The translations under genes and the position numbers were made by a program. From a virus, in the IMG/VR virus record IMGVR_UViG_3300026116_000536, positions 1 through 37,989 of that record: DNA of 37,989 nucleotides; one strand, written 5' to 3'. The first letter of the stretch is position 1, and each line of letters begins with the position of its first letter. The notes under the pieces were generated by a model. The model saw nothing but the letters and a program-made list of their open reading frames with translations, did not search any database and was not told the origin of the DNA. Positions 1 to 37,915 of this stretch are shown here, in pieces.

Positions 1-60
1 CGCCGCTAACCCCCGCCGCTCTCGGGACCCCTGGGAGGGGGTCCCTCCCCAGGGTGCGGC
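1..60. other. Left genome end, probable cos region
   Basis: The 7-mer CGCCGCT occurs at 1-7, again at 14-20, and as the last seven bases of the window (37983-37989), so the joined ends would carry three copies in close order. Bases 24-30 (GGGACCC) pair with 39-45 (GGGTCCC), and a second overlapping near-palindrome runs from 28 to 54. Hairpins and short repeats flanking a nuclease gene are typical of cos regions. The segment also encodes the C-terminal tail of the HNH protein. That the genome is cos-packaged is an inference; the cut position cannot be seen. Confidence 0.5.
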
Positions 61-377
61 TCGATGGTACGCAGTCCCGGGTGACGTTGGGTAGCGCGGG
101 CACGCCGCGGGCGCGTGGCGTTCGCCGCGGCCGCGCCCTGTTGACCAGTGCGGTAGGCGTGGCAGCGCGAGCACACGCCGCGCAGCTGCTCGTCGCGGTG
201 GTCCCATGCCTCACCCCTGTGGTCAACTTCAGTTGATCGATCACCATCACAGTGTGTGCGCAGCATGCACGAGGGATCACGCTTGAGGATGCGAGGTACC
301 ACCCTCGTACTCCAATCCCTGGGCAGGGGGTGGGTACGTCGTTGGGTGGGGGATGGTTTTTTGAAACGATCAGTCAT
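6..377 (-). CDS. HNH endonuclease at genome end
   Basis: A 123-residue protein with an HNH-type core: CMLRTHC near residue 37, EVDH at about 50-53, then CSRCH near residue 69-73, which supplies the zinc-binding cysteines and the catalytic His. HNH proteins of this size next to terminase genes assist cos cleavage with the terminase in HK97-like phages; here the gene would lie directly upstream of the small terminase once the ends are joined. The start ATG at 377 overlaps the upstream gene by 8 bases. The last 30 residues are Pro/Gly/Arg-rich because they are encoded by the GC-rich hairpin region of the end. Confidence 0.8.
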   Translation of the reverse strand: MTDRFKKPSPTQRRTHPLPRDWSTRVVPRILKRDPSCMLRTHCDGDRSTEVDHRGEAWDHRDEQLRGVCSRCHAYRTGQQGAAAANATRPRRARATQRHPGLRTIEPHPGEGPPPRGPESGGG

Positions 378-1238: not shown

Positions 1239-1446
1239 CGCGCTCCCTTCGCCTCACTCGCTGCCGTTGCTCTTTGCTGCGTCGAGCCGCGGTGCGATCG
1301 CGCACGTGCCAATGGTCTTCACAGCGATACGCTTCCGCATTGCACTTTTTGTTGAAACTGACCGAAATGGCGGCCGCGTGGGCTGACGACTCGTCCCGAT
1401 ATCGCTTTTTGCGCGGCGTACCGCATTTCTTTGGGTAGCCGCTCAT
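1216..1446 (-). CDS. Small basic zinc-binding-like protein
   Basis: A 76-residue, strongly basic protein starting at the ATG that overlaps the helicase stop as ATGA. It has KKCGTPRKKRYRDESSA near the start and KCNAEAYRCEDHWHV in the middle, the C...C...CxxHWH arrangement often seen in small actinophage proteins thought to bind zinc. The C-terminal 25 residues are almost all Arg, Glu, Lys and Gln. Function is unknown; nucleic-acid binding is plausible from charge and context. Confidence 0.7.
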   Translation of the reverse strand: MSGYPKKCGTPRKKRYRDESSAHAAAISVSFNKKCNAEAYRCEDHWHVRDRTAARRSKEQRQRVRRRERDERQTGA

Positions 1447-3140
1447 CGCGCTACTCCGGCGAGCATGGGAAGCGCATCGATGCGCGCAGAGGCTTTCGCC
1501 ACACTGATTGCGTCGCTCAGCTCGCCGCGAGTCATGCCGGGCGCCGGCGAGCCACCCCACGAGCGCAGATAGTTGGCCTGCTTCTCGCTGCCGTACTCAC
1601 GCCGCCAGCTGGCGCTTTTCGCGTGGTAGCCGCCGAGCGCGACCGCCTCACGCTCGCCCCAGGTCATCGCATAGCCCATGTCGACACCCTCGACAACCCA
1701 GCGGCCACCGGCCTTGTCCACCGGCACCGCGGCGACCGAGTACGTACCCGGCTCACCGGTCGGCACGAGGAAAACGATCGTCGGCTCCGTGGTACCGGCC
1801 TCGATGAACCACACGCCGCGGTTGGTTTGAAGCCAGCGCCGATGCGATTCCTCAAATAGCGAAAATTCGTACGATCCCAGCTTTCCGTCGTACAGCTTCG
1901 GTGGCGCACTGCCGGCGCCGGCCACCCGCTCGTCCTCATCGGGCAGCTCCGCCATGCCGAGGAGCGTGAGCGCCTCGAGCTCGTCGTCGCTGAGCTCGTC
2001 GGCAAGCTTCGCGATGCGCTCCCGGCCATCGAGCGTGGCCAGAGTCGCCAGGCGGTGCCGCGCGCCCACGCCCACGACATCCATGAGCAACGCCAGCTCC
2101 TGGCCCGGGTACGGGCGCAGGATCCGGCCGGCCATCTGCACGAAGAGCGGCGCGCTCGTCGTGGGCCGGCCCATCACGCCGACGTCGACCCACGGGAGGT
2201 CTGTGCCCTCAGTGAAAAGGTTGCAATTACACAGAACGTGTATCTCGCCCTTTTCGGAGAGCTCGAGCAACCTCCGGCGCTCGTCGATCGGCATGGTGCC
2301 GTCGAATCCGGCGGCCGGAATGCCCTCCGCGTTCAGCGCGTCCGCGGTCGCGTAGGCGGTCTGCACGGTCGGCAGGAACGCGATGCCGCGCCGGCCCTCA
2401 GCGTGCTTGCGGTACGCCCGTGCGATCGCTTCCGGCGCGAGGCATTGCATCATCGCCTCGCCGAGGTCGCCGTCCTGGTAGTCGCCGCGGCTCCGCCGAA
2501 CGTCGCGCAGATCGAGACCCTCGACGTGCACCCGCAGTGCGGTCACGTTCAACAGGAACCCGCGACGGATCATATCGACGATTTGTACCCGGTGTGAAAC
2601 CTTTTGCCAGATCTCGCCGAGCGAGACACCGTCGCCGCGAGCGAGCGTCGCGGTGAAGCCAACGGCAAGCGCTCCGCCGTCCGACCCGTCAGGCTCCATG
2701 CACCCCAGAGCCTCCAGGAGCTCCCTGTAGGTCCGCGCGGTCGCGTGGTGGCACTCATCCACGACCACGACCGTCGGGCGCCAGCTGGCCAGCTGGCGCC
2801 GCGCGGCGGCCGTCTGAGTCGACTGCACGGACGCCACGACCACCCGTCGGCCGGCGAGCTCGCGCCGAGCACCCTTCACGACGCCAACCGGCACGCTCGG
2901 CGCGACCGCCCGGAACTTGCGTACCGCCTGCTCGATCAGCTCATCGCGATGGGCGAGGACGAGCACCCGGCCGCCGCGGGCGACCGCCCAGGCGCCCAGG
3001 TGGGCAAACCCGACCGTCTTCCCCGCCCCGGTGGGCCAGACGACGGCCACCCGGCGCAGACCCGCGCGCCAGTCGGCGATGACCGCGGCGACGCCCTCGC
3101 GCTGGTAGTCACGCATGGGCAACGTGCCCGCGGCGGTCAC
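1443..3140 (-). CDS. DEAD/DEAH-box superfamily 2 helicase
   Basis: A 565-residue SF2 helicase, likely acting in replication or recombination. Motif I PTGAGKT is at about 36-42, motif II DECHH at 128-132, motif III TAT at 163-165, FTEGTDLPWVD at about 309-319, and motif VI QMAGRILRP at 335-343, so both RecA-like lobes are complete. Residues from about 400 to the end form an extra domain that I do not recognise. The GTG at 3140 overlaps the upstream stop as GTGA, which decides this start over an earlier in-frame one. Confidence 0.9.
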   Translation of the reverse strand: MTAAGTLPMRDYQREGVAAVIADWRAGLRRVAVVWPTGAGKTVGFAHLGAWAVARGGRVLVLAHRDELIEQAVRKFRAVAPSVPVGVVKGARRELAGRRVVVASVQSTQTAAARRQLASWRPTVVVVDECHHATARTYRELLEALGCMEPDGSDGGALAVGFTATLARGDGVSLGEIWQKVSHRVQIVDMIRRGFLLNVTALRVHVEGLDLRDVRRSRGDYQDGDLGEAMMQCLAPEAIARAYRKHAEGRRGIAFLPTVQTAYATADALNAEGIPAAGFDGTMPIDERRRLLELSEKGEIHVLCNCNLFTEGTDLPWVDVGVMGRPTTSAPLFVQMAGRILRPYPGQELALLMDVVGVGARHRLATLATLDGRERIAKLADELSDDELEALTLLGMAELPDEDERVAGAGSAPPKLYDGKLGSYEFSLFEESHRRWLQTNRGVWFIEAGTTEPTIVFLVPTGEPGTYSVAAVPVDKAGGRWVVEGVDMGYAMTWGEREAVALGGYHAKSASWRREYGSEKQANYLRSWGGSPAPGMTRGELSDAISVAKASARIDALPMLAGVAR

Positions 3141-3541
3141 CCGAGAGTCCTCAAGCCGGCCATGAAAACCCAACCGTCATCGATACCAGTCGGGTTGTAC
3201 GCGCAACCGGCGAGCACTGCCCGCGGCGGCTCCGCGGCGCCAGTCACCAGCCAGCCCACCACCGCGTAGCAACCGCGGCCGTCGTCGGCCATCGCGGTCA
3301 GCGCGTACCCCTGCGGGATCACGGTAGCGAGCTCCTGCGCGGCCGCGGCCTTCCCGATCAGCTCGAGCACACCGATCGGCTCGAGGTTGCCCCGCGGCGT
3401 CCGCGGCTTCCAGTCGATCGCGTCGAGCGCGGAGTCCATCACGTCGGGCGTGACGATCGACGCCGGCGCGTCCGTGTCGGCGAGCGGCGAAACCGCGGCG
3501 CCGCGGGTCGCCAGCTCCTCCGTCCAGGGCATGTCTCTCAT
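3137..3541 (-). CDS. Hypothetical protein
   Basis: A 134-residue protein without a recognised family. It begins with MRDMPWTEELATRG and continues as an alpha/beta protein with no membrane segment. GAAGGTGG sits about 9 bases upstream of the ATG at 3541. It lies between the origin-like repeat region and the helicase gene and is coupled to the helicase by a GTGA overlap, so a role in replication is possible but not shown. Confidence 0.7.
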   Translation of the reverse strand: MRDMPWTEELATRGAAVSPLADTDAPASIVTPDVMDSALDAIDWKPRTPRGNLEPIGVLELIGKAAAAQELATVIPQGYALTAMADDGRGCYAVVGWLVTGAAEPPRAVLAGCAYNPTGIDDGWVFMAGLRTLG

Positions 3542-3624: not shown

Positions 3625-3818
3625 ACTTGGAAACATCAACTTGCTCCTCAGCGGGGCCTAAAGGCCCCTGCTGAGTAAGTTGACCAAGTGGTTAAGTAGG
3701 TGGGTAAGTTGATCTAAGTGGATTCCCTGGTCACAGGCTTGCGGGACCAAGTTGATCATAAGTTCTACTAAGTGGCAGAGACTGACACTTTGCATGATCA
3801 ACTTGGTATACCAAGTGG
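3625..3818. repeat. Iteron-rich region, probable replication origin
   Basis: About 190 non-coding bases, clearly richer in A+T than the rest. AAGTTGA occurs at 3677, 3706 and 3749, and inverted as TCAACTT at 3636 and 3798; AAGTGG occurs at 3686, 3716, 3770 and 3813; AAGTAGG and AAGTTC lie at 3694 and 3760. Many copies are 8-12 bases apart, roughly one helical turn. A perfect 16-bp palindrome ACTTGGTATACCAAGT lies at 3801-3816. The region abuts the primase-polymerase/helicase gene, where iteron origins of such replicons commonly lie. Confidence 0.6.
3649..3673. terminator. Hairpin inside a larger cruciform
   Basis: CAGCGGGGCC (3649-3658) pairs with GGCCCCTGCTG (3663-3673) with one bulged base and a TAAA loop. 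The outer arms TCAACTT (3636-3642) and AAGTTGA (3677-3683) extend it. It could terminate the leftward primase transcript or be a structural part of the origin. Confidence 0.5.
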
Positions 3819-3835
3819 TATGATTCAAGCATCGA

Positions 3836-6067
3836 TCAGTCCATACCCAACATATCGGATACGCCCGTTCCCTCGGACTTATGTTCGATGAGCACCAGCC
3901 GCGAAACGCCCATCCGCTCGACGAGTGGAGGTCGCTCCGCGGTGCCCTCGACGAGCGACTTGACGGCTGAGGCGAACGACGTCTCCGGCATCGCGGGACG
4001 CTCGTCCCGCGATCGACGCTCGTTGATCCATCGCCTGGCCTCAGCGCCCGTCGCGCCGTTGGCGTCGCCATGCGCCCGGAAGGCCGCGAGGACATCCGCC
4101 TGATTCTCCGTGAGGTTGGCTACCCAGTCTGGCTCCGGCCGCCGGCTCCGCGGCGGGCCGAACGGGTCCCACCGGGCCAGCGCCAGCGAGGAGAGCGGCC
4201 GGCCGTCCTCGGACTCGCCGAGCTCTATCTTTTTGAGCTGAATGTCAAATACGTGCGACTCGTCGCCATCCTTCTGTTTGTCCATGCTGATCGTCGCCCA
4301 GAGCGCATCCCGTTCCGCCTTGACCCGCGGGCGGTCCACCCGGATCTCCGTGTCCTGGGCGCCGTCGACCGCGCTGGCGCCGCGGGCGTCGCGGCCATCC
4401 CGCCCGGTGTGGTGCACGACGAGTACGCACGCCCCGGTGGCTTCCTTCAGCCGACGGATGCCGTCCACGAGCTGACCCATGGCACCGTTGTTGTTTTCGT
4501 CCAGCCCGACCGTGATCCGCGCCTGAGTGTCGATGACGACCATCACCGGCTCGAGCCGCCGGCACGCCTCGACGAGCGCGGCCCAGCCCGCCTCATTGCT
4601 CACCTGTACCGGTTGGGGCAGCACGATCAGCCCGTCGGCCCGGACGCTGTACTCGGACTCCCAGGCGCTCACCCGCAACTGGATGCTCTTGCGCCCCTCC
4701 GCGGCGACGTAGACCACCGGCCCGCGGTGCACGTGCTTGCCTCGCCAGTGCAATCCCGTCACGATGTGACACGCCCAGTCCAAAGCGACAAACGACTTGA
4801 AGCACCCCGGAGCGCCGATCAGCCACGACTCGCTTTCGAGGTCGAGCACGTCGCGGATCAGCGGCCGCGGCGCGGGGATCTTGTCGAGCGCGTCGCGATC
4901 GAGCATCCGGGACAGCAGGAGCTCGACGAGATCAACCGGTTGGCCAGCCGCCTCACTGTCCACTGTGGTCAATCGATGATCGCCGTCCGGATAAGCCGGA
5001 TCCCGTTGCGGCGCCTCAGATTGACCAGCCTCAGCCGACCCAAAAGGGCCAGGGTCGAACTCCAGCCCCCGGCCCGCCCAGACGTCGCACCCGCACGCTT
5101 GGCGTGGCTCGCGGTCAGTGCCCGCGGCGAGGCGGACGGCTCCGGCCAGCGCGCGCAGCCACTCGCCGGCCGCCGTCTGCTCGCTGCGGTCGTCGCTGAC
5201 CGCCTCGATGAACCGCGGCCGGAGCCAGCCCAGCGCATCCGCGGCGCCGGCGTGCCCCTCGCCGCCCATCCGCGCCAGCGCGTGCACGGCGTCGCGCATG
5301 ACCTCGTGCCGGGCGCTAGCGCGCGCGGCGAGCTCGGCGGCCGCCGTCTGGGCGGTACGCAGCACGATGTCGCAGGCCGGCGAGGCGCGACACTTGTCGA
5401 GCCAGCTCCTCGAGGCGTCGTCGTCGAGCTCGGCGCCGTGGCGCCGCTCGCCGGCCCTGGCCAGCCCCTGCGCCCACGTCAAGGGGAGCTCGGCGAGCTC
5501 GTCGCGGCGCGGGATCGGATCGAACGCGGTACGTATCCGGGTGCCACCCGGCCAGACCCAGCCATACTCCGCGCCGTCGGCGTGCGGGTTGATCGACGGC
5601 CAGACGACGGCGTACCGGTGCCCGTACTGAATGATCTCTATGTTCGGGCCGGCCTCGCCCGGCCAGTGCACCGCGCCGGGGCCCTCGAGCTCGGCGAACT
5701 CGGCTGGCAGGCGATAGAGCCGAATGCCCGACACGCCGTCGTCGCGGGCTGAGCTCATCCACGTGTCCGGGAGCGGCCCGAACTGCTCGGCGAGCTCGGC
5801 GAGCGTCGCGGCGCCGCGCTTGTCGCCGTACGCGTCCACGTCCAGCCCGAGCACGCCGCGGGGCAGGCGGAGAGCGATGTTGCCGTGTCGCTCGGCGCCG
5901 TCGAGCCACGCCTGCAGGTCAGCCCAGGACGGCTCCGCACCGTCGTGTCCGGTCCATCCGGGCGGGGGTGGCCATTTCTGGCCCGGGGGGAGCGGTAGTA
6001 CTTCCCGCCAGCCCAGCGACCAATACTGTTGCGCCGCGGCGCCGAACGGTCCGTTATCATCGACCAT
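3836..6067 (-). CDS. Primase-polymerase/RepA-like helicase fusion
   Basis: A 743-residue replication protein. The N-terminal domain is a bifunctional primase-polymerase type: GWREVLPLPPGQKWPPPPGW at about 19-38 and the metal-binding DVD at 76-78, with NIEIIQYGHRYAVVWPS further on. The middle holds a RepA/DnaB-like ATPase with Walker A GAPGCFKS at 418-425, Walker B VMVVID ending at D513, and VLVVHHTGRDGRDARGAS. The last 90 residues look like a winged-helix DNA-binding domain. GGAGGT lies 9 bases before the ATG at 6067, which decides the start. It probably initiates replication at the adjacent iterons (3625-3818). Confidence 0.88.
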   Translation of the reverse strand: MVDDNGPFGAAAQQYWSLGWREVLPLPPGQKWPPPPGWTGHDGAEPSWADLQAWLDGAERHGNIALRLPRGVLGLDVDAYGDKRGAATLAELAEQFGPLPDTWMSSARDDGVSGIRLYRLPAEFAELEGPGAVHWPGEAGPNIEIIQYGHRYAVVWPSINPHADGAEYGWVWPGGTRIRTAFDPIPRRDELAELPLTWAQGLARAGERRHGAELDDDASRSWLDKCRASPACDIVLRTAQTAAAELAARASARHEVMRDAVHALARMGGEGHAGAADALGWLRPRFIEAVSDDRSEQTAAGEWLRALAGAVRLAAGTDREPRQACGCDVWAGRGLEFDPGPFGSAEAGQSEAPQRDPAYPDGDHRLTTVDSEAAGQPVDLVELLLSRMLDRDALDKIPAPRPLIRDVLDLESESWLIGAPGCFKSFVALDWACHIVTGLHWRGKHVHRGPVVYVAAEGRKSIQLRVSAWESEYSVRADGLIVLPQPVQVSNEAGWAALVEACRRLEPVMVVIDTQARITVGLDENNNGAMGQLVDGIRRLKEATGACVLVVHHTGRDGRDARGASAVDGAQDTEIRVDRPRVKAERDALWATISMDKQKDGDESHVFDIQLKKIELGESEDGRPLSSLALARWDPFGPPRSRRPEPDWVANLTENQADVLAAFRAHGDANGATGAEARRWINERRSRDERPAMPETSFASAVKSLVEGTAERPPLVERMGVSRLVLIEHKSEGTGVSDMLGMD

Positions 6068-6141
6068 CGAGTCTGACCTCCGCAAGGGTTGCTCATGGGC
6101 GGGACCGCGGCGAGCGGTCCCGCTTGGCATGTCCGACGAGA

Positions 6142-8099: not shown

Positions 8100-8240
8100 A
8101 TGACCGAAGAGAAGCGGCCGGCCGGTCACGTGCCGGCGCACGCCAAGAAACCGCCGACGTGGTTCGTGATCGGCTTTTCCGTGTTCATCGCGGTTGCCGT
8201 GGGCGGATGCCTCTACGGGTGCCTGGGAGTGATGCTGTGA
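8100..8240 (+). CDS. Small membrane protein, 46 residues
   Basis: Begins MTEEKRPAGHVPAHAKKPPT and has one transmembrane helix (WFVIGFSVFIAVAVGGCLYGCLGVML). AAAGGATC precedes the ATG. The stop overlaps the start of the exonuclease gene as GTGA. Function unknown; the position suggests co-translation with the exonuclease rather than a shared job. Confidence 0.55.
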   Translation: MTEEKRPAGHVPAHAKKPPTWFVIGFSVFIAVAVGGCLYGCLGVML

Positions 8241-9688
8241 GCGACGAGTTCGGCGCTCCCGCGGCGCGACCGAAGGACGCGGAGTACGACCGGTTTGGTC
8301 GGTACCTCCTACCCGACCCGGTAACCGGCGAGGTGACGTCGTACACCCGCGCGACCACGCTCGCCGGCACGCTCGATGACCGGTGGGCCCTCGAGGCGTG
8401 GAAGATGCGCATGGTGGCCCTGGGGCTGGGCAAGCGGCCGGACCTGCTCGCGCTCGTCGCGACCGCCCACGATCCGCACGACACGGACAAGTCGATGATC
8501 AATGACGCGTGTCAGCGCGCCCTCGAGGCGGCCGGTGGCACCGAGCGGCGTGACCTGGGTACCGCGCTGCACGCGCTGACACACTCGTACGACCGCGGCG
8601 ATCCCGCGGTCGTCGAGCCAGGCCGTGTCGTCGAGTCGCTCCGGCCCGGCCTCGCGGCCTACGCCGCGGCGATGCGGACCTACGGCCTCGAGGTCGCGCC
8701 CGACTACGTCGAGCGCAAGACGGTTGTCCCGGGTTGGGGCGTCGCCGGCACGGTGGACCGGTGCATGGTCCGCGACACCGAGGGGAAAGTCCGCGTGCTC
8801 GACATCAAGACCGGGCGGACCCTCGAGTACTCCGAGGTGTACATCGCCATCCAGCTTGCGGTGTACCAGCGCGGGTTGGCCGAGGTCGGGGTGTTCGACG
8901 AGCAGGCGCGGCGCTGGGATCCGCTCCCGCCCGGCGTGAAGCTGGACGACGCCGTGGGGTACGTGATGCACCTGCCGGGCCGGGACCCGAAGGCCGGGCA
9001 GGAGCTCGAGCCGACGCTGTACATGGTCGACCTGACTCGCGGCCGCGCGCTCGTCGAGCTCGCGCTCGACGTCCGGGGCAAGCGCAAGACGAAGGGTCTG
9101 CTCGCCCCCCTCCATCAGCCCGCGGCCAGCGCGCAACAGGTTGCCGACCGCCCGCCGGTACCGCCCGCGGACGTCGAGCTCGTCGAGCCGGTTCGGGACG
9201 TGACGGAAGCGGAACTTGCGCAGATGGCGTACGGCGGCCGGGCGCCCGACGTGGTGGTACGCGAGGCTGAGGCGATGCTCGAGGCCATCGCGGAAATCCG
9301 CGCGGCGGGCACGCTCGGCGAGCTGTCCAAGCTCTGGCGGAGGTACTCCGGGGCTGGCCTCTGGCATGGTGCCGTCGAGCAGGCGGGTATCGACCGCGGC
9401 CGGGAGATCGAGGCGGAGACCGCCCGCGCGGCAGAGGCCGCGGCGCCGTGCTCGTGCGGGCCCGGTCAGTACTGCCACCGGTCCGACTGCAAGAGCATCG
9501 ACGCCAGCGCGCTTCCCGACGTCCGCTCGCTCCTCGAGCTCGTCGCCCTGGCCAACTCCCGCGAGGAGCTCTCCGCGCTCTGGCAGCTGTGCCAGCCTGG
9601 CGGACTCCGCGAGGGGGAGTGGACGGCGGAAGTTCACGCGGCCGGCCTCGCTCGCCGCGCCCAGCTCGACGACACGGGAGCCGCCTAG
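8237..9688 (+). CDS. RecB/Cas4-like PD-(D/E)XK exonuclease
   Basis: A 483-residue protein. The nuclease core shows GTALH (about 108-112), GTVDR with D174, LDIKTG with D189 and K191, and the QLAVY motif at about 206-210, the order expected for RecB/Cas4-family nucleases, which degrade DNA ends in recombination or host DNA breakdown. From about residue 300 a Pro-rich linker leads to an additional region with CSCGPGQYCHRSDC near residue 408, possibly a zinc site, and repeated helical segments (LGELSKLWRRYS and REELSALWQLCQ are similar). The GTG start overlaps the upstream stop as GTGA. Confidence 0.85.
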   Translation: MSDEFGAPAARPKDAEYDRFGRYLLPDPVTGEVTSYTRATTLAGTLDDRWALEAWKMRMVALGLGKRPDLLALVATAHDPHDTDKSMINDACQRALEAAGGTERRDLGTALHALTHSYDRGDPAVVEPGRVVESLRPGLAAYAAAMRTYGLEVAPDYVERKTVVPGWGVAGTVDRCMVRDTEGKVRVLDIKTGRTLEYSEVYIAIQLAVYQRGLAEVGVFDEQARRWDPLPPGVKLDDAVGYVMHLPGRDPKAGQELEPTLYMVDLTRGRALVELALDVRGKRKTKGLLAPLHQPAASAQQVADRPPVPPADVELVEPVRDVTEAELAQMAYGGRAPDVVVREAEAMLEAIAEIRAAGTLGELSKLWRRYSGAGLWHGAVEQAGIDRGREIEAETARAAEAAAPCSCGPGQYCHRSDCKSIDASALPDVRSLLELVALANSREELSALWQLCQPGGLREGEWTAEVHAAGLARRAQLDDTGAA

Positions 9689-9690
9689 CC

Positions 9691-9704
9691 GTTTCACGTG
9701 AAAC
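9691..9704. other. Perfect parS partition site
   Basis: GTTTCACGTGAAAC is a perfect 14-bp palindrome and is identical to the consensus ParB-binding parS site of Streptomyces and other actinobacteria. It lies 2 bases after the exonuclease stop, in non-coding DNA. No parA or parB gene is present in the window, so a host ParB would be the expected partner. Sequence identity is seen directly; binding is inference. Confidence 0.8.
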
Positions 9705-9710
9705 CAACCG

Positions 9711-9726
9711 TGTGACCTATATCACA
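9711..9726. promoter_or_regulatory. Crp/GlxR-type binding site
   Basis: TGTGACCTATATCACA matches TGTGA-N6-TCACA exactly, including the central TA of the actinobacterial GlxR/Crp consensus. Its centre is about 72 bases upstream of the predicted start of the promoter at 9756-9784, one of the classic class I activator positions. Suggests activation by the host cAMP receptor protein. Confidence 0.65.
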
Positions 9727-9755
9727 AAAATAACACGCGCCGGAGCTTGTGGGGG

Positions 9756-9784
9756 TTGCCTACACGCACCGGCGCGTGTACACT
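9756..9784 (+). promoter_or_regulatory. Promoter with internal palindrome
   Basis: TTGCCT (-35, 9756-9761), 17-base spacer, TACACT (-10, 9779-9784). The spacer carries TACACGC-N6-GCGTGTA (9761-9780), a 20-bp palindrome touching both boxes, so a repressor bound there would block RNA polymerase. The same arrangement recurs at 10679-10707. Predicted start is near 9791. Confidence 0.7.
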
Positions 9785-10036
9785 TAGGGGTGCAAGCACA
9801 ACTAAAGAAAGTCCGGCCGGCACTCGGCGAAGCGCGATGATCTGAGGGGGGACCTCAGGGAGCGGCCAGAGTGAGGACAAAGACCCACCAGCACAGACCA
9901 GCACTACCCCACGGGCGCGTCCGGTGACGGCGCGAGTTCGGGCAGGGTTCGAATACCACCGTCAGCCCCGACGCCTGGCCAGCTCGACACTGGCAGCGCC
10001 CACGCAAGCAAGATCCCCCCACGGAAGGAACGGATC
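9785..10036 (+). other. Long untranslated leader before gene at 10037
   Basis: About 250 bases without a convincing gene. It contains a hairpin CTGAGG (9842-9847)/CCTCAG (9853-9858) and a GGTTCGAATACC sequence at 9946-9957 that resembles a tRNA T-loop but lacks a paired stem. The end (10014-10036) is the shared C-run/AAGGA leader. It could be a structured 5' leader or contain a separate small RNA; I cannot assign a known class. Confidence 0.4.
10014..10036 (+). promoter_or_regulatory. Shared start-associated leader, copy 1
   Basis: T-CCCCCC-ACGG-AAGGA-ACG-GATC directly before the ATG at 10037. AAGGA is the ribosome-binding site; the flanking C-run and GATC are conserved in copies at 10721, 11212 and (slightly changed) 14590. 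Confidence 0.6.
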
Positions 10037-10375
10037 ATGAACGAGCCGATCGAGGCGCACGTCCAGCTCAGCATCACCCACATCGAGGGCTCCGGCCCCG
10101 TGGTCGACAGCCCGGCCCACGTCAGGGCCTGGCTGGTGGCGGACGGCATGTGGACCGGCTACGCGGTCAACGGATTCGAGTTCGACGTGTGCACGACACA
10201 CGCCGATCCGGTCGCCTGCCCCGACTGCGAGCACGACGGATGTAGCGGCCCCTTCGCCAAGTACCTTGCGAAGATCGTCGGGGTGGAGGACGCGAGCCCG
10301 GTCGCCGGTGCGCGGTGCACCCGGCCGGACTGCCCGAACGCCTGGGCGGAGCACGACGCCCACGACGAGCGCTGA
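10037..10375 (+). CDS. Hypothetical Cys-rich protein
   Basis: A 112-residue protein. The first 60 residues resemble a small beta-rich domain (HVQLSITHIEGSG...WTGYAVNGFEFDVC). The second half has ACPDCEHDGCSG and RCTRPDCPNAWAEH, two Cys pairs and His residues that could form a zinc ribbon. It is the first gene after the parS/Crp promoter region and has a strong ribosome-binding site. Function unknown. Confidence 0.7.
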   Translation: MNEPIEAHVQLSITHIEGSGPVVDSPAHVRAWLVADGMWTGYAVNGFEFDVCTTHADPVACPDCEHDGCSGPFAKYLAKIVGVEDASPVAGARCTRPDCPNAWAEHDAHDER

Positions 10376-12206: not shown

Positions 12207-12234
12207 TCTGTGGTCGGGATATCCCGACCACAGA
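12207..12234. promoter_or_regulatory. 28-bp perfect palindrome
   Basis: From TCTGTGGTCGGGAT at 12207 to its exact complement ending at 12234, with no loop. It begins at the last base of a -10-like TACCCT (12202-12207) and ends one base into the GAAAGG ribosome-binding site of the gene at 12248. It may be an operator covering the transcription start, or an RNA hairpin next to the ribosome-binding site. Confidence 0.6.
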
Positions 12235-12247
12235 AAGGTACTCGATC

Positions 12248-12502
12248 ATGACCGACGAGAAGCCGGACGCTGAGATCACCACGAGCGTCAGCCCGCAGGG
12301 TCCCGACACCGAGGGCACCGAGCTCGTTTCCACCACGCCCGCGTGGGTCGACGAGCGCCGCGAGACCGAGGACACGCCGGACGACTCGATGAAAGCGCGT
12401 ACGAGCGCCGAATTCGAGAAGCTCGATGACGCGGAGCGCACCCGCGCCGGCCTGCCGACGCTGGCGCAGGAGCGCGAGGCAATCCAGGACGCCGGCAACT
12501 AG
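12248..12502 (+). CDS. Small acidic disordered protein
   Basis: An 84-residue protein with many Asp, Glu, Thr and Ser residues and almost no hydrophobic core, so probably disordered for the first 45 residues, followed by a charged helix (SAEFEKLDDAERTRAGLPTL). Highly acidic small phage proteins are sometimes DNA mimics or inhibitors, but that is speculation. It is expressed from behind the 28-bp palindrome and ends before a strong terminator. Confidence 0.6.
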   Translation: MTDEKPDAEITTSVSPQGPDTEGTELVSTTPAWVDERRETEDTPDDSMKARTSAEFEKLDDAERTRAGLPTLAQEREAIQDAGN

Positions 12503-16031: not shown

Positions 16032-16282
16032 ATAGTTCGCGCAAGCCCGACCTCGCCCGCGTGGTGCGCGGCCGGATGGTGCATGTCTACCGGCGCCGCG
16101 GGTTCGTCGAGGCGCTCGTGTACGCCGGGCCAGTCGCCGAGGGTGAGCCGCTCGCCGAATGGGAGATGCCCAACCAGCTGAGGTACAACCTTGACGCCGT
16201 CGCCCTGACCGCGGAAGCGCAGACGGAGCCCACAACCGCGGCGTCTGCGGCCTTGCCGGCGGAGGGGATTACCAGTGCATAG
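16028..16282 (+). CDS. Hypothetical protein
   Basis: An 84-residue protein, ATGA-coupled. Basic start (SSRKPDLARVVRGRMVHVYRRR), a short beta-rich core, and an Ala/Thr-rich tail. The stop overlaps the RusA-like gene. Unknown function. Confidence 0.6.
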   Translation: MNSSRKPDLARVVRGRMVHVYRRRGFVEALVYAGPVAEGEPLAEWEMPNQLRYNLDAVALTAEAQTEPTTAASAALPAEGITSA

Positions 16283-16742
16283 CCAGCCATCCATCCCCGG
16301 AGCGCGGGTACTCGAGTTCACCGCGTACGGGCGGCCGGCTCCGCAGGGGAGCAAGAGCCGCGGCGCGACCGGGCAGATGCGGGAGTCGAGCGAGTACCTC
16401 GCGAACTGGCGCGAGGCGGTCAGGCTCGCGGCCGCGCGCGCGCGCATCGCGCAGGGGTGGACGCTGGCCGAGGGGCCGTGCCAACTCGACCTGATCGTCT
16501 ACGTCAAGCGGCCGGCGCGCCCGGCGTCGCACTGCGAGCTGTACCCCGCGGGGCCGCCGGACCTCGACAAGTACGCCCGCGCGGTCAGTGACGCGCTCAC
16601 GCTCGCTGGCGTGTGGCGAGACGATTCCCGTTGGGTCATCAGCGGGATCTTGAAGAAGTGGTACGCCGGGCAGGCTGGCGCACCGGCCGATCCGGGCGCC
16701 TGGATTCGGGTGTCCGAAATACCGAAAGGTGTATTGATTTGA
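16275..16742 (+). CDS. RusA-like Holliday junction resolvase
   Basis: A 155-residue protein. GRPAPQGSK at about 18-26, then PPDLDKYARAVSDALTLAGVWRDDSR near 93-119 contain the conserved Asp residues of the RusA family (DLDK and the later DD). These dimeric nucleases cut four-way DNA junctions, useful for resolving phage recombination intermediates before packaging. The GTG start overlaps the upstream gene by 8 bases. Confidence 0.85.
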   Translation: MHSQPSIPGARVLEFTAYGRPAPQGSKSRGATGQMRESSEYLANWREAVRLAAARARIAQGWTLAEGPCQLDLIVYVKRPARPASHCELYPAGPPDLDKYARAVSDALTLAGVWRDDSRWVISGILKKWYAGQAGAPADPGAWIRVSEIPKGVLI

Positions 16743-26480: not shown

Positions 26481-26711
26481 TCACTTGCTCCGGCGTCGAT
26501 GGGCCATTTCGCGACGGATACCGGACAGCTCGCCGGCGATGGCGAGCAGGGCCAGCCCAATGGCCTGCCCCAGGCCGGTGTCGCTTTCCGGATCGCCCTC
26601 ATTCGAACTGGCCCAGGTGCTGAGCAATCCGTGTGCCTGGCGGGCCAGGTCTTCCGGATCGAGCCGCTCGGTCGCCGCGAACGGCCGCCCGTCGTCAGGA
26701 CTCGTCGGCAC
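26481..26711 (-). CDS. Small hypothetical protein
   Basis: A 76-residue protein from a GTG that lies 17 bases inside the end of the glycosyltransferase gene. Helical (PEDLARQAHGLLSTWAS; GQAIGLALLAIAGELSGIRREMAHRRR). It sits between the fusion glycosyltransferase and the gp10-like gene and may be a small head-tail factor. No family recognised. Confidence 0.6.
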   Translation of the reverse strand: MPTSPDDGRPFAATERLDPEDLARQAHGLLSTWASSNEGDPESDTGLGQAIGLALLAIAGELSGIRREMAHRRRSK

Positions 26712-27873
26712 GATGCGCCGCCATGTACTGATCGACGAGCGCCTGCGGGAGCCGGCCGCGGGCGCTGTGCTCGATGCCCTGACCGTCGAGCCAAGCGCGG
26801 ATGATCGCCGCTTCCGGCTGCTCCGCGATCTCGACGCTCGGCGCGGCCGCCGGCGTATCGCCCGCGCCACTGTCCAGCTCGACGACCGGCGAGCTGACCG
26901 GAGCCGCCTGCTCGGCGGCCGGCACTCCGGGGAAGTTCAGCACCAGCGGAGTCCAGAGCCGCGGGTAGTCGGTCACCACCGAGCTCGTCTTGTGGGCGGT
27001 CGTCTGCCCGCGGCGCACCGTGTACCGGCGCCGGCCCACGTAGACGATGGCGTTCTTTGCGGCCATCATGATGTCCGTTTCGACCATGCCCAGACTCCCG
27101 TCGTCACCCGCGCGGCGAGCCGCGGCGAGCGGGTTGTACCGCGGCGCCGGCGCGCGGCGATTCTCGTACCGCGATGGTACGGGAAACCGGTCCCGGATAT
27201 CGCGTCCCACCTGACCGCGCTCGAAAGCGCGCTGACTGGTCGACAGGTACGGCCACTCCGCGCGCCATTCGGTGGGATCCCCGTGGTGGACCTTGACGTC
27301 ACAGTGCCGAGCTCCGCCCAGGCGCGCGAGGTTGCCGTACACGGTGCGGATGTAGAACGGGTCTACCCCCTCGTACATCTGCAGCGCCGCGGCCGCCCGC
27401 GCCCGGTCCATCATCATCGGGACGTGCAGCTCGTAGCTGTACAGGCGACCGCCCAGCCTATGCGCGCGCATCACCTGGGCGGTCGCGCGCATGCCCGCGC
27501 GGCAGACACCGGAGCCGTACCGCTTGATCTGCTCGTCCGTGGTGCCGGCGTGCCAGACAGGGAAGCCGTCGGGGCCCACCGGCCGCATGAGGTAGAAATC
27601 GTCATTCATCAGTAGGAATTGCTCGGGCGGGCCAGCCGGGCCGTAGCCCCGCGGCTCGAGCGCAGCCCGGAAGTTGTCGAGCGCGCGGCGCCACTTGCTC
27701 TGTCCGATCGCCTTGACTGGAACGTGCTCGACTCCCGTCAGCCATTCCGGACAGTAGCCGGCGACGATCACCCGGCCATGATCCGGGAGGTTCGTCTCGA
27801 GCGAGCGGAGCGAGTACCGGAGCTCTTCGTTGCGCGGCTCCGCGGCGACGTAATAGACGACGTCCACGCTCAC
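26695..27873 (-). CDS. Stealth-type glycosyltransferase fused to Lsr2-like domain
   Basis: A 392-residue protein. Residues 1 to about 225 resemble Stealth-family sugar-phosphate transferases: VDVVYYVAAEPRNEELRYSL at the start, FLLMNDDFYLMRPV with NDD at 90-92, and the later VHHGDPTEWR. Residues about 271-315 (VYVGRRRYTVRRGQTTAH...YPRLWTPL) resemble a short module of actinophage head proteins. Residues about 357-387 (IIRAWLDGQGIEHSARGRLP) match the Lsr2 C-terminal DNA-binding pattern. It may glycosylate virion proteins or the cell surface. GTGA-coupled to the head-tail joining gene. Confidence 0.7.
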   Translation of the reverse strand: MSVDVVYYVAAEPRNEELRYSLRSLETNLPDHGRVIVAGYCPEWLTGVEHVPVKAIGQSKWRRALDNFRAALEPRGYGPAGPPEQFLLMNDDFYLMRPVGPDGFPVWHAGTTDEQIKRYGSGVCRAGMRATAQVMRAHRLGGRLYSYELHVPMMMDRARAAAALQMYEGVDPFYIRTVYGNLARLGGARHCDVKVHHGDPTEWRAEWPYLSTSQRAFERGQVGRDIRDRFPVPSRYENRRAPAPRYNPLAAARRAGDDGSLGMVETDIMMAAKNAIVYVGRRRYTVRRGQTTAHKTSSVVTDYPRLWTPLVLNFPGVPAAEQAAPVSSPVVELDSGAGDTPAAAPSVEIAEQPEAAIIRAWLDGQGIEHSARGRLPQALVDQYMAAHRADES

Positions 27874-35832: not shown

Positions 35833-37467
35833 TCAGAAAACCGCCTTCCCGCTACGGCGTCGTTTCTTCCAGGCGCGCGACGCGAGCACCAGCCTACGCA
35901 CCAGCCGAACCCCCACGACGCAGGCCGCGGCGTCGATCTTATGCGGCGAGGCGGGAGATTCCTTCCGGATCGACAGACCGAACCGGTTGGGATCGTTCCG
36001 CGCCGCGGTCACGTGCCGTGTGGTCGCCGCGTTCCCGTCGTGAGTAAACCCCCCATCGGCGATCTCCGCGGCGGTCAGCTCGCAGGCCACCGTGAAGTCG
36101 TACACATGGGTACGCATGTCCCACGCAATCTTTTGCGGATTCTTCCCACCCGGCACCGCGTGCACCATCAGGTCATCACCGAAGAGCTCGGGCCAGGCTA
36201 CCTGTACGTACGACTCCCATTCGCGGACGTCTCCAAAGAATCCCGCGACGCGCCAGCGCTCACGCGCGCGCCTGACCGCCAGATCGACCACCGCGGGGTT
36301 GACGTCGTGCTTCATCAGCAGGGGTTCCCACACGCCGATGGTGAACACGTGCCCGGTCTCGATGACGCATCCGAGGAGCGCGGTGGAGTCGGCCGATTTC
36401 GACCCGTCGAAAAACATCGCGATGTACTCTTTGTCGGGTACGACTGTACCCGACGCCGCGAGGTCGCTCCATTGCTCCGGCTCAACCCAGGCGTCTTCCG
36501 CCACGCTTGGCCGGTTTCCGTACTTACGCTTGGAGTCGGACAGTTTCGACTTTGGCGAGTAGATCCGACCCATAATACTGTCGATATCCTGCCAAAATGA
36601 GTCCTGGTATATCCGCTCGAGCTCGGCCCGAACCTGCTCGGGCTGGTACCAGTCGAGGTCCGGCCGGCTCACGATGGCGTCGTACAGAATGCGCCCGGAT
36701 TCCGGGATCAGTTGGTCGCTCTCCTGCAGTACCCAGGCATCCCAGGTCTCCTCCGCGACGCTTCCCTGCCCCGGCGTCCAGGCATTGTTGGTCTCGACCA
36801 TCCGCGAACTCGATTTGGCGAGATTGTCCAGGAGCGTCGCGCTCAGGTCGTCGCCACCGTTGTTGGGTTTCCAGTGCTCGGTCTCGTCGGCGATGATGAG
36901 CGACGGCTCCGCGCCCTCCGCGGCGGTCGCGCTCGACGTGATGACCTCGAGCGTGCCCTCCGGAAGCCGGTAGTACCGCGTCTTGCCGGGGTCGAGCTTA
37001 TACTTGTCGACGATCGGCGAGCCTTTCGGCGCGAATGCGCGCACCATCCGCATGGTATTTCCGGTCTGACTCTCGGCCGTCGCCGCTATCTGTACCAATG
37101 GCATATTGACCGGTTGGCCGATCACCAGTCGTCTCTTGTGGTCGATGTCCTTCACCCGCGTCGGACCGCAGAACTCGCCCAGCCCGAGCACGGCGACGAA
37201 AGGCGACTTCCCCGACCCCTTCGCCAGGCGCCGCGCGCCATGCTGGAAGAGCCAGCGACCCTCATCGTCGACCGCGTACCACCAGAACAGATACCGCAGC
37301 TGCCGCGGGGTGTACCGAAACAGCTGCCCCGCGCGGGGGCCGTTGGGTTGGATCAGCGTCGACTCCGCCCAGCGCGCCACGCTCGGGCCGAGCGTGAGCA
37401 CGGAGCCGTCGAACGGGAATGGCGGGAGGGTGTCGAGGCGGTCAGCCGGCGCGACCGCGGTATTCAT
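35833..37467 (-). CDS. Terminase large subunit
   Basis: A 544-residue packaging motor. ATPase: Walker A-like AKGSGKS at 82-88 and Walker B IIADETEHW with D194/E195. Nuclease: acidic residues D354 (MFFDGSKSAD), D413 (FFGDVREWE) and D512 (PHKIDAAAC) in the RNase H-like arrangement. It cuts concatemeric DNA at the ends and pumps it into the head. Overlaps the small terminase gene by 26 bases. Confidence 0.92.
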   Translation of the reverse strand: MNTAVAPADRLDTLPPFPFDGSVLTLGPSVARWAESTLIQPNGPRAGQLFRYTPRQLRYLFWWYAVDDEGRWLFQHGARRLAKGSGKSPFVAVLGLGEFCGPTRVKDIDHKRRLVIGQPVNMPLVQIAATAESQTGNTMRMVRAFAPKGSPIVDKYKLDPGKTRYYRLPEGTLEVITSSATAAEGAEPSLIIADETEHWKPNNGGDDLSATLLDNLAKSSSRMVETNNAWTPGQGSVAEETWDAWVLQESDQLIPESGRILYDAIVSRPDLDWYQPEQVRAELERIYQDSFWQDIDSIMGRIYSPKSKLSDSKRKYGNRPSVAEDAWVEPEQWSDLAASGTVVPDKEYIAMFFDGSKSADSTALLGCVIETGHVFTIGVWEPLLMKHDVNPAVVDLAVRRARERWRVAGFFGDVREWESYVQVAWPELFGDDLMVHAVPGGKNPQKIAWDMRTHVYDFTVACELTAAEIADGGFTHDGNAATTRHVTAARNDPNRFGLSIRKESPASPHKIDAAACVVGVRLVRRLVLASRAWKKRRRSGKAVF

Positions 37468-37915
37468 TGATGTCCGGCACGCCGTCGGGAAGCTCGGGCA
37501 GCTTCTGGTCGCCCTTGGCGAGCTCGATGCGGAGCCGGCGACGGTCGCCCTCGGTGGCGAGGAGTGCGGTACACGCCTTCAGGAACGCCTGCACGCTGGC
37601 GCCGGTGACCTGCTGACGGGCCAGCGTCGGTACGCCGGTGGCCAGGTCGACGCCGTGCACCGTGGGCAGGAGGTCGCGACTCATGACGTCGGCAATGAAG
37701 TACGCGGTCGCCCAGTCACTCTGTTGGTAGCGCACGCTCTGGCCGGACTGGGCGAGGGCGTCGTACCACTGAATGGCGGTCGGGTGCCAGGTCTCGTCTG
37801 CCGGGTACGGAGCGGCCGGCCGGCGCTCGATATCCTTATCGATAGGTATCTCTGGCTGGTTCGCGCGGCGCCGCTGGTCGCTCGGCGTGGGCACTGGCCC
37901 CGGTATCCCTGACAC
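37442..37915 (-). CDS. Terminase small subunit
   Basis: A 157-residue protein starting at GTG with AAAGAGG 7 bases upstream. It begins SGIPGPVPTPSDQRRRANQP, the usual opening of actinophage small terminases, and has helical oligomerisation segments (ASVQAFLKACTALLATEGDRRRLRIELAK). It recognises the packaging site, here expected in the adjacent end sequence. Confidence 0.8.
   Translation of the reverse strand: MSGIPGPVPTPSDQRRRANQPEIPIDKDIERRPAAPYPADETWHPTAIQWYDALAQSGQSVRYQQSDWATAYFIADVMSRDLLPTVHGVDLATGVPTLARQQVTGASVQAFLKACTALLATEGDRRRLRIELAKGDQKLPELPDGVPDINEYRGRAG

Follow-up and report, generated by a model that had tools for sequence, protein, structure and literature searches.

The window, by which we mean the whole 37,989-base stretch analysed here, is an IMG/VR virus record whose gene content resembles that of a tailed actinobacteriophage. 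Its structural block occupies the minus strand, from the end that carries the terminase small subunit down to ~17.3 kb, and its plus-strand early region comprises an exonuclease, numerous small genes, and a RusA-like resolvase (Table 1). The phage has a replication gene of its own, encoding a Prim-Pol/helicase protein, with no partition genes seen, and no integrase was recognised among the scanned proteins. Just past the exonuclease stands a perfect palindrome, GTTTCACGTGAAAC, which occurs once in the window, there being no other match at up to three mismatches. Given that the exonuclease TAG stop codon lies at 9686-9688, 2 bp before the palindrome begins, and that the next gene is called from 10037 onwards, the palindrome falls in non-coding DNA. 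The initial annotation, which had described an exact parS in non-coding DNA directly after the exonuclease, was thus correct on both counts. The bases immediately flanking the site are C..C, rather than T..A.

Table 1. Features of the window around the parS site and the main recognisable genes of the phage.
Feature	Position	Strand	Basis or remark
HNH endonuclease	6-377	-	Protein family/phrog searches
Helicase	1443-3173	-	Protein family/phrog searches
Prim-Pol/helicase replication protein	3836-6130	-	PF13481 4.5e-39, PF09250 4.1e-18
PD-(D/E)XK / Cas4-type exonuclease, upstream of site	8237-9688	+	PF12705 3e-7; phrog_466 exonuclease 1.4e-65
Non-coding gap around parS, 348 bp	9689-10036		G+C 62.6% vs ~69% in neighbouring kilobases
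Perfect 14-bp parS palindrome, proposed host-ParB loading site	9691-9704		Exact match
CRP-type perfect dyad TGTGA-N6-TCACA	9711-9726		6 bp past parS
Long hairpin after parS and CRP-like dyad	9733-9779	+	Inverted repeat, 21-nt arms, 86% complementary; fold
112-aa gene downstream of site	10037-10375	+	ORF and gene calls
RusA-like resolvase	16275-16742	+	Protein family/phrog searches
Terminase large subunit	35833-37467	-	Protein family/phrog searches
Terminase small subunit	37442-37894	-	Protein family/phrog searches

The site shares its gap with a CRP-type dyad, the sole exact copy of that motif in the window (two others occur at one mismatch), and with a long hairpin that is possibly a terminator without a T-tract. 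The CRP-like dyad was considered as a regular companion of parS and rejected, as it was seen in this window only among the parS sites examined. A search of the gap for RNA families gave no credible match, a classical promoter scan found none, and family searches with the 112-aa product of the downstream gene returned no match. Elsewhere in the window, a perfect 16-bp palindrome, ACTTGGTATACCAAGT, lies at 3801-3816, directly downstream of the Prim-Pol/helicase gene, and a perfect 28-bp palindrome, TCTGTGGTCGGGATATCCCGACCACAGA, lies at 12207-12234, directly before the small early gene at 12248-12502. Within the structural block, positions 26695-27873 encode a phrog_7999-type protein whose C-terminus is weakly similar to the Lsr2-like phrog_1223 and phrog_6269; a Lsr2-type DNA-binding tail is possible for this protein.

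The consensus of the bacterial chromosomal parS, or ParB/Spo0J box, is TGTTTCACGTGAAACA (as used in PMC10197239). The 14-mer of the window had been described as the actinobacterial chromosomal type, and it is indeed present in 115 of 148 genomes from the Actinomycetes, the class of Sciscionella, in which a reversed control pattern has no match. Like the parS of chromosomal ParABS systems, the site in the window has the 14-bp core and a non-coding location; unlike them, it is a single copy, in a phage genome in which neither parA nor parB was seen, and with C..C instead of T..A flanks. At the chromosomal sites of actinobacteria, T or C occupies position -1 in 61 of 69 cases, while the pair T..A is found at 13 of the 69 and C..C at one. 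A scan of the genome collection with the phage terminase recovered three loci only, in a Micromonosporaceae MAG, an Actinomycetes MAG, and Sciscionella, and all three of these genomes contain the 14-mer. Because these terminase relatives reside in actinomycete genomes, the host of the phage is itself likely an actinomycete.

Neither DNA searches nor a search with the exonuclease in IMG/VR recovered a close relative of the window, although near records may fall outside the search. Among 49 terminase-related records (46-69% amino acid identity), the exact 14-mer occurs in none, with one record at one mismatch and one at two, and the exonuclease was absent from the 28 terminase-related records in which it was sought. 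A second group of carriers bears on how such absences are read. Specifically, three IMG/VR contigs (L237, L254, and L273) have a parS in common that is missing at the corresponding place in their farther relatives, and, given this turnover among distant relatives, the absence of the site from the 49 terminase relatives is weak evidence. Pelagibacter phage HTVC027P (57.6 kb; the record of L463) has an exact parS elsewhere, at MN698241.1:16413-16426. Since no close relative of the window was found, the claim made for it rests on the class of parS-carrying phages to which it belongs.

The number of exact parS matches expected in the window is 2.4e-5 to 5.8e-5, depending on the order (0 to 3) of the Markov model. 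A motif recognised after the fact invites multiple testing, and we therefore made a collection-wide control, in which 2.9 million IMG/VR contigs were scanned for parS and for palindromes of equal composition. The form flanked by two G/C bases at either end, SSGTTTCACGTGAAACSS, was found in 111 contigs in a complete scan, compared with 3 and 2 contigs for two control palindromes under the same SS..SS flank rule, such that parS with G/C flanks is ~40-fold over-represented relative to matched palindromes in IMG/VR. With a single G/C base required on each side (S..S), parS was present in at least 120 contigs, the counts for three controls being 12, 7, and 12; the last of these controls departs from parS in its outermost base pair only. 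As SS stands on both sides in 29 of 114 unique S..S sites sampled (25%), the 111 contigs extrapolate to ~440 S..S carriers, versus 7-12 for the controls, and by that extrapolation ~2% of S-flanked matches would be due to chance. The collection-wide control, too, excludes chance as the main cause. The earlier judgement that an exact 14-mer is improbable by chance in 38 kb is hence borne out by the expectation and the control palindromes alike.

In neither flanking sequence nor gene content are the carriers related, and their G+C ranges from 0.30 to 0.70. When no constraint is placed on the flanks, T..A flanks, which complete the 16-bp TGTTTCACGTGAAACA, are found at 94 of 148 viral sites, and C..C flanks at one of the 148, among the matches listed. 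By the calls of a home-made gene caller, parS is intergenic at 184 of 369 sites (50%), compared with 11% of random positions in those contigs and 3 of 19 control sites. Divergent gaps, which make up 17.7% of intergenic bases, are under-represented, with 15 of 149 parS sites; convergent gaps, at 7.7% of those bases, are over-represented, with 30 of the 149. The idea of a preferred neighbouring gene was rejected, as no function dominates among the genes adjoining parS, even the large-subunit terminase standing at 8 of 93, versus 3 of 92 for controls. Most carriers have one or a few sites, and a few contigs have clusters, with a maximum of five. The contigs with five exact copies (L185, L029, and L074) hold them within ~0.8-2 kb, like chromosomal or plasmid centromere arrays, and the record of L185 has no TIGR00180 match.

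Matches to ParB families were infrequent among the carriers. PF02195 (ParB_N) was over its cut-off in 5 of 42 carrier records, and TIGR00180 was over its cut-off in none of 50, with weak matches in 9 of the 50; as these records may be fragments, the absence of ParB is unproven for individual carriers. In the window itself, PF02195 gave no match and no ParA-type protein was present among the scanned proteins, some small ORFs lying outside the scan. The earlier statement that this phage has neither parA nor parB accordingly stands for ParB, and for ParA it extends as far as the proteins scanned. Many unrelated phages bear a perfect host-type parS, mostly without a recognisable ParB.

Conservation of the site could be followed in phages of Arthrobacter. 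Six of the IMG/VR carriers (L235, L268, L287, L310, L322, and L324) have a parS site and its flanks in common, and the L268 locus matches the Arthrobacter Korravirus phages (Cluster AK; 101 records), from which 14 genomes were chosen over a range of identities down to ~76%. The first Korravirus site, in the gap between polI and a PurA-like gene and close upstream of the PurA-like start, is an exact 14-mer in all 14 genomes. Its 14 columns are all invariant, versus 58% of other aligned columns, and its immediate flanks vary symmetrically (cc..gg or tct..aga). Thirteen of the 14 genomes have the exact 14-mer once more, at 23.6-25.2 kb, and this second site is identical throughout, with several unrelated upstream flanks; in Temper16, its bases include the last part of gene 30 as well as the GTG with which gene 31 starts. 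Two Microbacterium relatives lack parS at the polI/PurA-like locus. A paper on the Arthrobacter phages of this set describes them as primarily lytic (PMC5513430) and nowhere mentions parS; Korravirus phages, like Arthrobacter sp. ATCC 21022, are organisms of the laboratory. Further, the annotation of Temper16 contains no parA, parB, or integrase, and PF02195 had no match in three Korravirus genomes. An invariant site beside a diverged upstream flank, in phages without ParB, points to selection on parS itself, and the alignment provides direct evidence that a host-type parS is under selection in lytic phages unable to read it on their own. The proposal that a host parS has been borrowed is therefore supported for the class, by the enrichment, the intergenic bias, the 16-bp flanks, and the Korravirus sites, while for the phage of the window, whose distant terminase relatives lack the site, such borrowing is put forward by class. 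As separate observations, the second Korravirus site (L448-L461) lies at the junction of unrelated upstream sequences with a conserved downstream gene, resembling a mosaic boundary, and Bodacious (L452) has a third exact parS, at ~25.65 kb, in a context that differs from the other sampled Korravirus.

Having recognised parS, ParB dimers bind CTP, close as clamps, and slide away to accumulate over kilobases, and the accumulated ParB is a platform for partners such as ParA and SMC (PMC12704722, PMC10197239). Considered against this background, the site in the window is probably a genuine parS, at which host ParB clamps would load and act on the whole phage genome. The phage would supply the DNA site, and the host would supply ParB, together with ParA and SMC. 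Specifically, dimers of the chromosomal ParB of the host would load at the phage parS as CTP-bound clamps, and, once loaded, they could affect the phage genome as a whole replicon by positioning, compacting, or protecting its DNA, presumably to the benefit of the phage. Action on the whole replicon seems most likely because no type of gene is preferred near the site and because sites turn over among distant relatives. Further, the excess of convergent gaps and the deficit of divergent gaps fit whole-replicon effects, such as nucleoid or origin placement, compaction, and shielding. Phages thus probably enlist, via parS, the protein with which the host segregates its chromosomes. Whether such borrowing of a centromere amounts to a general strategy, whereby unrelated phages, lytic ones included, would carry a selected parS so that host ParB clamps coat their genomes like origin DNA, is a question on which we are evenly divided.

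The main alternative to whole-replicon effects is the titration of ParB, and sequence alone cannot tell titration from positioning. Replicated phage genomes would here be decoys that draw ParB off the host origin and upset host segregation. The same sequence evidence that favours a loading site favours a decoy, and there is a precedent in SGI1, whose parS-like sites bind the ParB of an IncC plasmid, stabilising SGI1 and destabilising the plasmid (PMC10954446). However, arrays of sites might be expected of a decoy, and the carriers mostly have one or a few; we consider this explanation unlikely, if a serious one. Alternatively, host ParB at parS could exert local transcriptional control, as a roadblock or silencer of the gap and the gene downstream. 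In Pseudomonas aeruginosa, the promoters that adjoin parS3 and parS4 are repressed by ParB (PMC5521831), and both the other dyads in the gap of the window and the nearness of the first Korravirus site to the PurA-like start would be in keeping with such a role. Nevertheless, the sites concentrate neither in divergent promoter regions, which are under-represented where convergent gaps are over-represented, nor beside one type of gene, which makes promoter silencing the less favoured reading, and we regard local control as distinctly unlikely.

Two further explanations were considered. The palindrome could be the operator of a phage-encoded regulator and equal parS by coincidence, an idea for which the Korravirus genomes offer some encouragement, given that symmetry there reaches past 14 bp into flanks that vary symmetrically and that HTH proteins are annotated in Temper16. 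However, no regulator was recognised in the window, and the same ParB site, mostly with T..A flanks, recurs in carriers that have neither their genes, their G+C, nor the surrounding sequence in common, which renders a private regulator improbable as the cause; we think it very improbable. Finally, the match in this particular phage could be fortuitous, as the motif was picked by a reader, its C..C flanks are unusual, and the 49 terminase relatives have no exact site. Against this stand the expectation of 2-6e-5 in the window and the excess of S-flanked carriers over the control palindromes, which together leave chance with scarcely any credence.

ParB is the protein by which the bacterial origin is marked and moved. 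Should lytic phages maintain parS by selection without a ParB of their own, host segregation machinery would handle phage DNA in the infected cell. The searched literature yielded no description of such a layer of interaction between phage and host. Such handling, if true, would also be relevant to the way in which phages locate the nucleoid or the replication machinery and to the question of whether infection is aided or hindered by ParB or SMC. No paper on host-type parS in ParB-less phages was found in a search that lay outside preprints and most subscription journals. A mobile element with the site only is known from SGI1, while the use of the chromosomal system by lytic phages appears to be new.

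Comparison with known systems places the window among several partial resemblances. SGI1 and the phage of the window are both mobile elements with a parS-type site and without their own ParB. However, SGI1 is an integrative mobilizable element that uses a plasmid ParB and a plasmid-type site, with binding and stability shown experimentally (PMC10954446), whereas the window is known from sequence. P1 and the mycobacteriophages that form extrachromosomal prophages (PMC7157519) have ParB-type centromere sites on phage genomes, as does the window, but they encode their own parABS, and no partition proteins were seen in the window phage or in Korravirus. The ParB-only Staphylococcus phages, such as Lacachita (PMC10286716), resemble the window in having a partial partition system that is thought to rely on the host, with the parts reversed: Lacachita-type phages have the protein, whereas the phage of the window has the site only.
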